Assembly: GCA_016873775.1 (NCBI GenBank) | Contig: VGWC01000010.1 | Span: 1-49,828, forward strand | DNA: 49,828 bases | DNA from: Ignavibacteria bacterium | GTDB taxonomy: Bacteria; Bacteroidota; Ignavibacteria; UBA10030; F1-140-MAGs086 | Direction of reading: 5' to 3' | Shown: positions 947-49,828 of the stretch, piece after piece | How positions within the stretch are numbered: the stretch's first letter is position 1 | Layout of the letters: every line of letters begins with the position of its first letter | Made by a program: the position numbers and the translations under genes | Notes under the pieces: model-generated | Told to the model about the DNA's origin: nothing | The model's database searches: none | The model's input: only the letters and a program-made list of their open reading frames with translations

Positions 947-2122
947 ATGTCACAGAAAATAATTTATTTCTTCATCATACTAAATGTAATAAATATTGTT
1001 TATGCTCAAGAAGAATTAATTACTAATACGAGCAAGCCAAAAAACGTGAAAATCGTTGCAGATACAAAATATCCAACAATCAAAATCCTATCTCCACAAA
1101 ACTTTCGCGGAATGAAACCACTTAAAGAATCATCGCTTGAAATTATTGGTCTTGCAAGTGATGAGAGTGGAGTGAGTTTAGTTTCTGTTAATGGAAAAGC
1201 GGCGCAACTTTCTGAGCCATCATATAGCGAAGTGCAACAATATAATGTAAGCGGCAAAGTGGTAAAGTTTTCGGGAGAGGTTTCACTTTCAATGAGAGAA
1301 AATACAATCACTATAATAGCAACGGATACAAAAAATAATACGGCAGAGGAAACGTTTACGGTTGTGCGAGAGGAAGAAAAAATTTCTACACTAATTACAA
1401 CAAACGATTCGCAATTTATCAAAGGAAAATATTATGCGCTTATTATTGCTGTGCAAGATTACAAAAGCATTATGGGTTTGGAGTACCCATTGCAAGATGC
1501 AGAGAATGTAAAAAATGTTTTAACGACAAATTATACATTTGAAAATAATGCAATTCATTTTTTGAAAAATCCTAATCGCAAAGATATTTTTTCTGCGTTG
1601 CAGCAACTCAAGAAAAAACTTTCTGCGGAAGATAATCTGCTCATTTATTATGCAGGACACGGGTTTTGGGATGTGGATAATAGTCAAGGATATTGGCTTC
1701 CCGCGAGCGCAAGTTGGGACGACCGCGCGGAATGGATTTCCAACAGCGATATTCGCGACAACATCAAAAGCATCAAAACGAAACATACGCTGTTAATTTC
1801 GGATGCGTGTTTCAGCGGAGGAATTTTTAAGTCGCGCGAAGCAAAGGAGAAGCCGGATATTTCGATTCAAAAAATGTATGAACTGCCGAGCCGCAAAGCG
1901 ATTACGAGCGGCACGTTCAAAACCGCCGTTCCCGATAAAAGCGTGTTTGCGGATTACTTGCTCAAACGCTTGAAAGAAAATTCCGCAAAGTATTTGGACG
2001 CAGAAAATCTCTATCTCAACTTCAAGCAAGCGGTCATCAATAATGGTCCCGCCGTTCCGCAGTTCGGCGTGATTTATGATGCGGGTGATGAAGGGGGAGA
2101 TTTTATTTTTGTGAGGAAGTAG
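947..2122 (+). CDS. Exported caspase-like (peptidase C14) protein
   Basis: A signal peptide (residues 1-21, ending VYAQ) is followed by a bacterial Ig-like domain at about residues 40-140 and a caspase-like domain from about 160 to the end. The caspase dyad is intact: His238 in YYAGHG and Cys288 in DACFSGG. The signal peptide places the enzyme outside the cytoplasm. The gene follows the barrel-like gene at 77-937 by nine bases with an AGGAG ribosome site. Base composition changes within the gene: the row 1021-1080 has 20 G+C of 60, while 1681-1740 has 34 and 1801-1860 has 30. Substrate and role are unknown; metacaspase-like proteins usually cleave after basic residues. Confidence 0.85.
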   Translation: MSQKIIYFFIILNVINIVYAQEELITNTSKPKNVKIVADTKYPTIKILSPQNFRGMKPLKESSLEIIGLASDESGVSLVSVNGKAAQLSEPSYSEVQQYNVSGKVVKFSGEVSLSMRENTITIIATDTKNNTAEETFTVVREEEKISTLITTNDSQFIKGKYYALIIAVQDYKSIMGLEYPLQDAENVKNVLTTNYTFENNAIHFLKNPNRKDIFSALQQLKKKLSAEDNLLIYYAGHGFWDVDNSQGYWLPASASWDDRAEWISNSDIRDNIKSIKTKHTLLISDACFSGGIFKSREAKEKPDISIQKMYELPSRKAITSGTFKTAVPDKSVFADYLLKRLKENSAKYLDAENLYLNFKQAVINNGPAVPQFGVIYDAGDEGGDFIFVRK

Positions 2123-2219
2123 TTTGCTCGTTTGTTCGTTTCTAAAAAGTTTTTCCATTAACTAACTAACCAGCAAACGAACTAACTAAATAACATTTAA
2201 ATCTAACACCTAAAACCTA
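2122..2219 (+). repeat. Periodic intergenic repeat element before yajQ
   Basis: Positions 2122-2145 read as three 8-bp units, GTTTGCTC, GTTTGTTC and GTTTCTAA. Positions 2130-2141 pair with 2175-2186 in inverted orientation with one mismatch, and AACTAACTAA occurs at 2160-2169 and 2180-2189. A second part at 2199-2219 is three 7-bp units, AAATCTA, ACACCTA and AAACCTA, ending four bases before the yajQ ATG. There is no recognisable purine-rich ribosome site in the element. Related periodic elements lie before hpnC, rnhB and yraN. Confidence 0.65.
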
Positions 2220-2223
2220 ATTT

Positions 2224-2721
2224 ATGGCATCAGACAGTTCATTCGACATCGTTTCTAAAATTGATTTTCAAGAAGTAGATAATGCACTGAATCAAGCGCG
2301 GAAGGAAATTATTCAACGCTATGATTTTAAGGATTCAAAATCATCCATCGAGTTGAAAGAGAAAGAAAAAGAAATTGTTCTCATTTCTGACGACGAATTT
2401 AAAATGAAATCGGTTGTGGACATTGTGCAATCGAAAATGATTAAACGTGGAATACATTTGAAAGCGTTGAAGTTTGGGAAAATTGAACCTGCTGCAAATA
2501 CAACCGTGCGGCAAGTGATTTCTCTGCGCGTCGGAATTGAAAAAGAAGATGCAAAACTTTTGACGAAGATGATAAAAGATTCCAAGTTGAAAGTGAACGC
2601 GCAAATAATGGAAGACCAAGTTCGCGTTGCAGGAAAAAGTAAAGATGATTTGCAGTCTGTAATTCAGATGGTGAAGAATGCTGACCTACCATTTCCAGTT
2701 CAGTTTGCGAATTATAGATGA
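2224..2721 (+). CDS. yajQ: YajQ-family nucleotide-binding protein
   Basis: The 165-residue length and whole sequence fit the YajQ (DUF520/UPF0234) family. Family hallmarks are the N-terminal [20 protein letters not shown] stretch, the QRYDFK segment near residue 33, and the C-terminal [12 protein letters not shown] end. Members are cytoplasmic proteins with two ferredoxin-like domains; some bind cyclic di-GMP and act with transcription factors, while others have only been shown to bind nucleotides. The flanking genes (caspase-like upstream, squalene synthesis downstream) give no functional clue. Whether this copy binds cyclic di-GMP and influences the nearby flagellar locus is not shown by the sequence. 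The start follows a periodic repeat rather than a ribosome site, but no other start fits the family. Confidence 0.93.
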
Positions 2722-2802
2722 TATGCGATTTGAGATTTGCGATGTGAGTATTTTGAATTGACTTGATATGGACTCACATATCTCACATCTCACATCTCAC
2801 AT
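2720..2802 (+). repeat. Heptamer inverted-repeat element overlapping hpnC start
   Basis: The left half, 2720-2747, is four 7-bp units: GATATGC, GATTTGA, GATTTGC and GATGTGA. The right half holds CTCACAT at 2773-2779, 2782-2788, 2789-2795 and 2796-2802, the complement of the left units (GATGTGAG against CTCACATC). The right half lies inside the hpnC reading frame and encodes the Ser/His-rich start of that protein. This is the same design as the element before rnhB, with a different unit sequence. Confidence 0.7.
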
Positions 2803-3703
2803 CATTTCACATTCACTAAAAGAAATAGACGATGCATTTGATTATTGTGCAAGAATTACAAATTCACATTACGAAAATTTTCCAGTTGCATCGTTATTTC
2901 TTCCGCAGGAAAAACGTCCGTACATCCAAGCGATTTATGCTTTTGCAAGAACTGCTGATGATTATTCCGACGAAGGAAATATTTCGGTTGAAGAACGTAT
3001 GGAAAAATTAGAAGATTGGAATACGCAACTTGACCTTTGTTTTCAGCATCAATCTCAACATCCAATTTTTATTGCATTGGAAGAAACTGTTTTTAAACTC
3101 AATCTTCCGAAAGAACCATTTACCGATTTACTTACAGCATTCAAGATGGATGTAACAAAAAATCGTTTTGAAAATTTTGAAGAGTTGCTTTTCTATTGCA
3201 AACACTCTGCAAATCCGGTTGGAAGATTAGTGTTGCTCGTGTTCGGTTATCGCGATGAAAAACTATTTCAGTTTTCCGACAACATTTGCACTGCATTACA
3301 ACTCGCAAATTTTTGGCAAGATGTTTCTGTTGATAAAAATAAAAACAGACTTTATATTCCACTTGATGATATGAAACGATTTGATTATTCAGCGGAGAAA
3401 TGGAATGATGGAGTTATGGATGATAGTTTTTTTCAATTGATGAAATTTCAAGCAGAAAGAACGAAACAACTTTTTTATGATGGAACAGAATTACTCGAAA
3501 GCGTTGATAAAGATTTGCGTTTGGAATTACGACTCGTATGGTTTGGCGGAATGAAAATTATACGAAAGATTGAAAAACAAAATTACAACGCGTTTGCGCG
3601 AAGACCACAATTGAATTTGTTCGATAAACTTTCAGTATTTTACAAAGGAATGTTTGCAAAAAGTTTTTATCACAATCCAGAATCACCTGCACGATGGGAA
3701 TAA
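2768..3703 (+). CDS. hpnC: Squalene synthesis protein HpnC (hydroxysqualene synthase)
   Basis: This trans-isoprenyl diphosphate synthase-family enzyme belongs to the three-step squalene route, where HpnC converts presqualene diphosphate to hydroxysqualene. The first acidic motif is FARTADDYSDEG (residues 59-70); the second is around Asp185 in FWQDVSVDKNKNRLYIP, where HpnC has FWQD in place of the HpnD NIIRD form. HpnD follows with a 10-base overlap and HpnE after that, so all three enzymes are here. The N-terminus (MDSHISHLTSHIISHS) is encoded by the CTCACAT repeats and is not conserved in the family. No other ATG, GTG or TTG in this frame lies between it and the conserved region, so I keep this start. 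Confidence 0.92.
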   Translation: MDSHISHLTSHIISHSLKEIDDAFDYCARITNSHYENFPVASLFLPQEKRPYIQAIYAFARTADDYSDEGNISVEERMEKLEDWNTQLDLCFQHQSQHPIFIALEETVFKLNLPKEPFTDLLTAFKMDVTKNRFENFEELLFYCKHSANPVGRLVLLVFGYRDEKLFQFSDNICTALQLANFWQDVSVDKNKNRLYIPLDDMKRFDYSAEKWNDGVMDDSFFQLMKFQAERTKQLFYDGTELLESVDKDLRLELRLVWFGGMKIIRKIEKQNYNAFARRPQLNLFDKLSVFYKGMFAKSFYHNPESPARWE

Positions 3704-4536: not shown

Positions 4537-4666
4537 ACCCAATATCGAATTAAAGAAATAAAGTATTTTGGAGTTCGTAAGTCACAATTTCTCAGCGCTC
4601 CACTGTTCCTCGACTCATCATTTCAATTGCTTGATATTCTCAATCAGTTTTATTCTATAGCAACAA

Positions 4667-48659: not shown

Positions 48660-48663
48660 CAAA

Positions 48664-48735
48664 GAGCAACGAGCGTAGAGCATAGAGTAAAATCTCTTCT
48701 CTTCGCTCTTCGCTCTTCGCTCTATGCTTTATGCT
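48664..48735 (+). repeat. Heptamer inverted-repeat element overlapping rnhB start
   Basis: Left half, 48664-48691: 7-bp units GAGCAAC, GAGCGTA, GAGCATA and GAGTAAA. Right half, 48701-48735: CTTCGCT three times, then CTATGCT and TTATGCT. AGCATAGAG (48679-48687) and CTCTATGCT (48720-48728) pair perfectly. The rnhB ATG (48731) lies in the last unit. The design matches the element at hpnC. Confidence 0.75.
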
Positions 48736-49333
48736 TTCTTTGAATTTTGAAAACGAATTTTGGAACAACAACATGAATTTCGTTGCTGGAATTGATGAAG
48801 TGGGACGCGGACCTCTTGCAGGACCGGTTGTTGCATCTGCAGTTTTATTTCCCCAAAATATTTCTTTGAACGGAATTAACGATTCAAAAAAACTTTCAGA
48901 AAAAAAACGCGAAGAATTATTTGACAAGATTTACGAAAACGCAATTTCTGTCGGTGTCGGAATTGTATCGCACGAAGAAATTGATGAACTCAACATTCTC
49001 AATGCGACATTTGAAGCAATGCATCGGGCGGTAAAAAAACTTTCCATTTCACCGCAGCATTTATTGATTGACGGAAATAGATTTTCAAAAGATTCAAATA
49101 TTCCATTTACAACTATTGTTAAAGGAGACGCGAAATGTTATTCAATTGCCGCCGCTTCCATTATAGCAAAAGTTACACGCGATAGAATGATGAAAGAACT
49201 TCACCAACATTTGCCGCATTACGGTTTTGCACAACACAAAGGTTATCCGACAAAAGCGCACGTAGAAGCAATACGAAAATTCGGATTGAGTGAGTTTCAC
49301 CGAAAAAGTTTTGTTGTGAAGGGATGGAAATAA
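48731..49333 (+). CDS. rnhB: Ribonuclease HII
   Basis: RNase HII removes RNA from RNA/DNA hybrids and single ribonucleotides from DNA. All four acidic catalytic residues are present: Asp22 and Glu23 in GIDEVGRGPLAGP, Asp114 in LLIDGN, and Asp133 in VKGDAKCYSIAAASI. DSKKLSEKKRE and AKVTRDRMM are further family motifs. The first 14 residues precede the conserved start MNFVAGIDEVGRG; the ATG at 48731 is part of a heptamer repeat and an ATG at 48773 would give the shorter, equally usual N-terminus, so the start is uncertain. yraN follows, a common pairing. Confidence 0.95.
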   Translation: MLSLNFENEFWNNNMNFVAGIDEVGRGPLAGPVVASAVLFPQNISLNGINDSKKLSEKKREELFDKIYENAISVGVGIVSHEEIDELNILNATFEAMHRAVKKLSISPQHLLIDGNRFSKDSNIPFTTIVKGDAKCYSIAAASIIAKVTRDRMMKELHQHLPHYGFAQHKGYPTKAHVEAIRKFGLSEFHRKSFVVKGWK

Positions 49334-49358
49334 TTTCCAATTGACAATTGATAATTAG
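49331..49358 (+). repeat. Heptamer repeat element before yraN
   Basis: Four 7-bp units, TAATTTC, CAATTGA, CAATTGA and TAATTAG, fill the gap between rnhB and yraN and end two bases before the yraN ATG. CAATTGA includes the palindrome CAATTG. It is a short version of the periodic elements at yajQ, hpnC and rnhB. Confidence 0.6.
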
Positions 49359-49360
49359 AA

Positions 49361-49717
49361 ATGGTAAACACAAAAACCACCGGCAACAACTACGAAGACA
49401 TCGCTGTAAAATTTCTTCAACAAAAGAATTATGAAATCATTACTCGCAATTTCAATATTCATCACGGAGAAATTGATATTATTGCGAAAGATAATTCCAT
49501 ACTTGTATTTATTGAAGTAAAAGCACGAACAAACGATTCACACGGAACTCCTGAAGAATCCATTACGCCGAAGAAACAACAAGCACTTCGCAAAACCGCC
49601 GAAGGATTTTTATTCAAACATCCCGAAATTCAATTCAAAGAATCTCGCTTCGACGTAATCGCAATTGAAAACAACAACGGCGAAATTCAAATTCGACATT
49701 TGATAGAAGCATTTTAA
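49361..49717 (+). CDS. yraN: YraN/UPF0102-family nuclease-like protein
   Basis: This 118-residue protein matches the YraN (UPF0102) family, which has an endonuclease-like PD-(D/E)xK fold. Family residues are seen: the N-terminal helix GNNYEDIAVKFLQQKNYEII, the HHGEIDIIAKD motif (Glu37, Asp39), and IEVKAR (Glu52, Lys54). The C-terminal SRFDVIAIENN is also typical. The role in the cell is not established; close association with rnhB and other DNA repair genes is common. The start follows a periodic repeat element rather than a ribosome site. Confidence 0.93.
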   Translation: MVNTKTTGNNYEDIAVKFLQQKNYEIITRNFNIHHGEIDIIAKDNSILVFIEVKARTNDSHGTPEESITPKKQQALRKTAEGFLFKHPEIQFKESRFDVIAIENNNGEIQIRHLIEAF

Positions 49718-49725
49718 AATGCGGA

Positions 49726-49807
49726 AAGATGGAGTCCACCTTTTTTTAATACCAACGTAAAGTTTTTAAGATGCAATGATTCTATTAAGCAAGGTGGACT
49801 CCATCTT
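49726..49807 (+). repeat. Perfect 17-bp inverted repeat, MITE-like or hairpin
   Basis: AAGATGGAGTCCACCTT (49726-49742) and AAGGTGGACTCCATCTT (49791-49807) are exact complements, separated by 48 bases of A/T-rich sequence. Pairing resumes further inside with TTAATA and TATTAA. It could be a miniature inverted-repeat element, the 3' hairpin of yraN or a bidirectional terminator (T7 follows the left arm). No target-site duplication is obvious. Confidence 0.6.
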
Positions 49808-49828
49808 ATCCCAATCTAAAATATAAAA

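Follow-up and report, generated by a model that had tools for sequence, protein, structure and literature searches.

Short repeats fill the 101 nt that separate a caspase-like gene from yajQ in an Ignavibacteria bacterium, which raises the question of whether this leader is a solitary curiosity or a member of a larger class and, if the latter, what process makes and keeps such sequences. The locus lies in the window, i.e., the whole stretch of DNA that was analyzed (49,828 nt), which is one whole contig of the source genome, a 2.54-Mb draft MAG in 157 contigs that is 97.7% complete and that related genomes, one of them from the same genus, assign to Ignavibacteriales. The initial annotation described the gap as 8-bp units with an inverted counterpart, followed by 7-bp units, and the sequence and TRF agree on this layout:

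947-2122, plus strand: caspase-like gene (PF00656), with its TAG at 2120-2122
2123..2142, plus strand: element 1 left arm, G/T-rich, 8-nt units (TRF 2122-2141, period 8, 2.5 copies; RNA fold)
2156..2190, plus strand: element 1 right arm, A/C-rich, with TAAC/AACT core repeats, inverted to the left arm (TRF 2159-2194, period 4; RNA fold)
2199..2220, plus strand: element 1 start-proximal array, AAATCTA ACACCTA AAACCTA (TRF period 7, 3.1 copies; a related array occupies the same place in G001, a same-genus relative, isolate CROMO_A_84)
2224..2721, plus strand: yajQ (DUF520; Pfam PF04461, E 8.9e-65), whose protein in G001 is 93% identical

Directly 3' of the TAG, the left-arm units read TTTGCTCG TTTGTTCG TTTC. 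In a predicted RNA fold of positions 2122-2223, the left arm pairs with the right arm and a loop is left between them; the fold (z = -3.5) is better than that of all 200 shuffles. Three further elements with the same type of periodicity had been proposed for this window:

2720..2812, plus strand: element 2, a period-7 hairpin (TRF; RNA fold z -2.2); at this position G001 carries a period-7 hairpin built of different units
48660..48737, plus strand: element 3, a period-7 hairpin (TRF; RNA fold z -4.3), with other arrays at the same stop codon in G001
49334..49360, plus strand: element 4, a short array, CAATTGA CAATTGA TAATTAG, between rnhB and a UPF0102 gene (TRF period 7, 2.7 copies)

Elements 2 and 3 bear out this proposal clearly, and both are cleaner than element 1. 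Element 2 has left GATTTGN units that run from the yajQ stop codon and right CTCACAT units (TRF 2780-2803, ATCTCAC in 3.4 copies, 100%), and element 3 has left GAGCNNA units and right CTCTTCG/CTCTATG units (TRF 48699-48723, CTCTTCG in 3.6 copies, 100%). Element 1, however, is the least regular of the four, with TRF scores of 30 to 37 and a lag-4 signal that outscores lag 7, and element 4 is short and weak (fold z -1.4); with TRF scores of 30 to 37, elements 1 and 4, each taken alone, would not be convincing. The suggestion that each element touches a start codon holds for element 4, which ends at the ATG at 49361, but not for element 1, which stops 4 nt short of the yajQ ATG (2224). Elements 2 and 3 begin at the upstream stop codon instead. 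In element 2, the loop contains the start predicted for the squalene/phytoene synthase gene (2768), and the right arm is read in frame. Element 3 starts at the stop codon of an Omp85-like gene and reaches into the beginning of the rnhB reading frame, overlapping an alternative ATG at 48731; a further in-frame ATG lies at 48773.

Other observations in the window concern its coding potential and its edges. The synthase N terminus is the in-frame right arm of element 2 (2768-2812; MDSHISHLTSHIISHSLKEIDD...), and in G001, judged by eye, an ATG in the loop likewise opens a frame through the different arm found there. At the contig end, past the UPF0102 gene, there is an inverted repeat at 49726-49812 (AGATGGAGTCCACCTT ... 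AAGGTGGACTCCATCTT). At gathering scores, no Rfam covariance model matched any part of the window.

Element 1 is weak alone but strong as a member of a genome-wide class. Intergenic periodicity was compared with dinucleotide-preserving shuffles of gaps in a 1.04-Mb sample of the genome (about 41%), taken as stretches, with genes called by a simple and crude codon-usage caller. Period-7 arrays were found in 73 of 494 co-directional gaps, about one gap in seven, versus 2.0 expected. In the same gaps the signal was weaker at lag 8 (14 observed/2.0 expected) and lag 9 (13/3.2); lag 14 gave 49/2.0, lag 12 10/2.2, lag 4 6/2.2, and lag 11 4/1.8, and there was no excess at lag 5 (1/1.5), lag 6 (2/3.2), lag 10 (2/4.5), or lag 13 (3/4.2). 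Both periods suspected from the window, 7 and 8, are therefore enriched over shuffles, and 7-nt tandem units occur above chance in intergenic DNA, as heptanucleotide repeats do elsewhere. In the first 845 kb, lag-7 and lag-14 matches in co-directional gaps reached z 13.3 and z 10.4 against shuffles, whereas convergent gaps gave z 0.1, divergent gaps gave -2.1, and coding regions showed a deficit.

Some long period-7 arrays do lie within predicted coding regions (e.g., L117:3072, L130:13034, and L220:16995). Arrays of this kind with a score of at least 11 number 41 in 0.93 Mb, of which some may be explained by gene-calling errors. One example, ACAAAGA ACAAGGA, sits apparently inside a protein-coding gene (L013:1030-1059 and L024:2426-2456) and is kept in genomes G004 and G040.

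The placement of the arrays is uneven. Across four genomes, arrays were borne by 110 of 832 co-directional gaps, compared with 3 of 98 convergent and 7 of 110 divergent gaps (Fisher p 4e-4), corresponding to densities of 0.98, 0.21, and 0.23 arrays per kb, respectively. The first array lay at most 10 nt from the stop codon in 63 of the 110 co-directional gaps, versus 42.7 expected under uniform placement, while the corresponding count for the start side was 45 versus 42.7; arrays thus tend to hug the upstream stop codon rather than the start codon. On the sense strand, arrays at stop codons are G/T-rich (32 versus 11) and those at start codons are A/C-rich (24 versus 5; p 7e-6), and the G/T-rich arm comes first in 21 of 30 inverted pairs (p 0.04). 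Most exceptions with the opposite polarity come from a single family, CAAATNAC...GTNATTTG, and gaps without arrays show little asymmetry of this kind. Two ordinary functions agree poorly with the data. Intrinsic terminators do not fit the scarcity of arrays where transcription units converge (3/98 versus 110/832), and a cassette providing stops in all frames was rejected on a count of 362 sense stop codons in arrays versus 450, i.e., more, in the reversed sequence.

The initial annotation envisaged a family defined by period rather than by sequence. The 60 distinct canonical words among 100 arrays favor this idea; nevertheless, words recur, as all seven letters are common to 2.5% of array pairs versus 0.4% expected, about 7 times above the null, and some arrays are inherited. 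NAATNAC arrays occupy 37 bins versus 2 for the reversed word, and three successive NAATNAC units occur 102 times in the genome versus 0 for the reversed pattern. A family defined purely by period is therefore not supported; the class is mainly defined by period, with recurring words in addition. When neighboring units differ, the substitutions recur at one or two positions of the unit more often than expected by chance (Z of 8.6, 5.3, and 4.5 in three of the genomes), giving units with restricted free positions, such as GTNATTN, ATTTTAN, and GATNTGN. Diversification of adjacent units within arrays was set aside as a candidate feature because its test was biased by the array selection procedure. 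An inverted partner better than 20 shuffles was detected for 36 of 98 arrays, and nearly two thirds have none.

One alternative explanation is independent replication slippage at each locus, with a polymerase that favors 7 nt and no dispersal. This polymerase preference was proposed in a 2007 SSR survey, as reported in passages of PMC4679880, according to which heptanucleotides also outnumber the other longer SSRs in many bacteria. In the arrays studied here, period is the most constant property while words number 60 per 100 arrays, and words shift in register along some arrays (L113:12185 and L128:12706), and both observations favor slippage. In G001, moreover, the array after the Omp85-like gene prolongs the 7 nt with which that gene ends, ATTTTAG. 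MutS1 is present in the genome, but 7-nt loops exceed the size that MutS handles; the presence of MutS1 led us to reject a loss of mismatch repair as the cause. Local duplication of gene ends was likewise rejected as a general origin, as the periodicity reaches only weakly into a gene's last 7 nt (135 matches versus 114 +- 7). Slippage alone, however, leaves unexplained the sharing of words 7 times above the null, the absence of the reversed NAATNAC triplet against 102 forward occurrences, the confinement of substitutions to one or two unit positions, the inverted arms, the polarity, and the co-directional restriction. We consider it a possible but unlikely account of the whole class, and slippage is kept below as an inferred growth step.

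Comparison with a modest set of relatives reveals both turnover and descent. In G001, a period-7 hairpin also follows yajQ, but its units differ from those of element 2. In the Omp85-rnhB gap of G001, the stop codon is identical (CAATTTTAG), yet GAGCNNA is replaced by ATTTTAN and AACTCGT arrays. Three gaps are filled in one genome and array-free in the other when the source genome and G001 are compared (window position 4537, L164:3340, and L168:6797), and the gap at L159:14986 contains unrelated words in a close relative. By contrast, the start-proximal AAATCTA array of yajQ is retained in G001 despite a different upstream gene. Between G004 and G040, arrays are present in both genomes for 4 of 6 array-bearing gaps, mostly as recognizable descendants; the core of the yajQ-side leader array is without indels, and one gap (L177:11257) differs between these species by 3 versus 8 units. 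The prediction that elements differ while genes agree was hence borne out in the yajQ-synthase and Omp85-rnhB gaps of G001 but not in the 4 of 6 gaps conserved in G004/G040: turnover of arrays is real, though not universal. A separate G001 gap, that after 16788 in L209 (G001:C2), carries a period-7 hairpin whose right arm is split by a small palindrome (TCCGAAAGGAGTCCTTTGGA), a further instance of one palindrome nested in another.

Arrays conserved by descent in G004 and G040 would also fit an ordinary functional leader. Accordingly, a second explanation holds that these are conserved cis-regulatory arrays, i.e., tandem sites for RNA- or DNA-binding proteins, a role already proposed for TAACTGA arrays in Beggiatoaceae. 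Substitutions in fixed unit positions, the position of arrays upstream of start codons, their polarity, and the retention of a leader array at its site both in the pair G004/G040 and beside yajQ in G001 all agree with it. The number of words is too high for one protein, though, the same gap can hold unrelated words in a close relative (L159:14986 and Omp85-rnhB), and divergent gaps, where promoters lie, show no enrichment of arrays. In our view a regulatory origin of this kind is doubtful.

The dispersed palindromes of the genome bear on a third explanation, namely that the elements are REP/BIME-type palindromes mobilized by RAYT (Y1) transposases, with incidental periodicity. Gap-versus-gap BLAST uncovered palindromes of about 83 bp with period-9 arms (AGAACACNGATNACACNGATNNNACNGAT...), of which there are about 23 in the genome, and four PF01797 genes are present:

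G000:C5:2799-2880 and C35:21295-21387 (L224, L235): examples of period-9 palindromes, AGAACACNGATNACACNGAT..., with conserved ends AAT..ATT
L299-L302 (G000:C18, C105, C91): four Y1/RAYT-like transposase genes

REPs, too, lie between genes. However, the palindromes on either side of the transposase gene on contig 105 belong to a family without periodicity (ACCGTAAACGGT ... AATCATAAATGATT) that occurs also in convergent and divergent gaps (2/1/3), and period-7 arrays have no fixed core and, in two thirds of cases, no inverted partner. Among the genes found in this genome, none that could mobilize the arrays is tied to them; where a palindrome is visible beside the four Y1 genes, it is of another, non-periodic kind. 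A RAYT-driven origin of the arrays is therefore improbable.

The period-9 palindromes have features of their own. Their motif is found in 28 of 198 Bacteroidota genomes and in members of other phyla, and the free positions in their arms avoid complementarity (61 matches versus 89 +- 6 expected when polarity is kept). Anti-complementary free positions were rejected as a general hairpin rule, as they hold for one palindrome family and not for two others. No target-site duplication is visible around the palindromes of this genome, whose ends read AAT[AGAAC...GTTCT]ATT, and in this they do not match a MITE. In G104, a MITE of about 150 bp with ends GAGACCTCTGAAAAA occurs in dozens of near-identical copies, some with target duplications of 5 to 6 bp (L303-L311 and L330-L358), and carries the period-9 palindrome as a passenger. 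In L312 and L314, the period-9 palindrome sits within a second palindrome and is itself interrupted by a third.

Lastly, a reverse transcriptase or a telomerase-like enzyme could have copied the arrays from an RNA template of 7 nt, an origin that the initial annotation had raised alongside slippage. Units of constant length in which one or two positions vary freely do resemble templated repeat addition, as does a constant period with a changing sequence. A profile search for RVT_1, though, gave no match in the 97.7% complete genome while control genomes gave matches, and this disfavors the idea, as do the many words, the periods of 7, 8, and 9, and the words common to different loci. Templated copying is the least credible of the explanations weighed here. 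Phage and plasmid carriers were rejected as well, since searches returned no phage match and one weak plasmid match.

We tentatively prefer, with somewhat less than even confidence, a composite reading in which the yajQ-leader element belongs to a large and heterogeneous class of 7-nt (and less often 8- to 9-nt) repeats, often in imperfect hairpins, that arises by slippage, dispersal, and filtered survival. Slippage by whole units would lengthen and shorten arrays, consistent with the different lengths in orthologous gaps. A limited stock of words and palindromes would be spread among loci as insertions, as seen in the sharing of words, the dispersed palindromes, and the occurrence of gaps with and without an array. 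Selection may then permit survival almost solely between co-directional, presumably co-transcribed genes, in a set orientation and from the upstream stop codon, which is the distribution observed. Their most likely status is that of intercistronic mRNA hairpins, tolerated or retained, that hold two cistrons apart; such a hairpin would leave an A/C-rich, G-poor stretch ahead of the next start codon.

A bolder and rather unlikely possibility is that a general bacterial process makes intergenic repeats with a fixed unit length (7, sometimes 8 to 9), a free word, a set orientation, and a start at the stop codon. If so, period, place, and polarity would be inherited or remade while the sequence turns over, and the process may act during operon transcription or via a copying enzyme not yet known. 

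Beyond this genome, period-7 arrays similar in style occur at individual, scattered loci in Acidobacteriota, Desulfuromonadales, Psychromonas, and Vibrio; among 80 diverse loci they were about ten times rarer overall than here, at slightly different thresholds. NAATNAC is patchy in Bacteroidota (57 of 198 genomes), and the reversed word is frequent in others.

That bacteria carry an excess of 7-nt repeats has been on record since 2007, though no mechanism has been given, and the pattern described here suggests that a poorly understood process is behind their formation and maintenance. Any mechanism would need to account for co-directional gaps, polarity, stop anchoring, limited substitution positions, inverted arms, and word replacement in the same gap, constraints that make the question testable in cultured relatives. 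Heptanucleotide repeats as such are known, but their polarity, their restriction to co-directional gaps, and their turnover within a gap seem not to have been described in the literature searched, which takes in few subscription journals and in which the exact array words also had no match. Likewise, the passages cited here from PMC4679880, PMC4692102, and PMC2700814 do not mention many words with one period, polarity, or same-gap word replacement.

Among known systems, REP/REPINs with RAYTs and MITEs are also short, dispersed intergenic palindromes, but they share no fixed core with the arrays, which have no tied transposase and are defined by period-7 arms. The heptanucleotide elements of Geobacter metallireducens are similarly multicopy and intergenic, with 4 to 5 units and some drawn as fold-backs, yet in the passages of PMC2700814 they have a fixed consensus (GGACCGG, MTYCTGA) and are read as regulator-binding or RNA elements. 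The TAACTGA arrays of marine Beggiatoaceae, Cyanobacteria, and some Bacteroidetes resemble the present arrays as patchy, start-adjacent heptamer direct repeats, for which passages of PMC4679880 propose a translational role; unlike here, they consist of one exact word, with related heptamers rare as repeats. TAACTGA is not among the words listed for the arrays of this genome. Passages of PMC4692102 give single-word heptamers in Xanthomonas and Nostoc, and the GGGAATC repeats of Xanthomonas, too, form intergenic arrays with some inverted pairs, but they are a single G-rich word with proposed quadruplexes, whereas the arrays here are A/T-rich and have many words. A further likeness is to bacterial heptanucleotide SSRs and cyanobacterial STRR, which passages of PMC4679880 and PMC4692102 portray as intergenic, built of 7-nt units, and patchy across phyla. 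Those known cases are each named after a single fixed word or a small number of them, while the arrays described here comprise 60 words per 100 arrays, with degenerate units and inverted arms, and are further set apart by their co-directional restriction, their polarity, and the turnover of words within the same gap.
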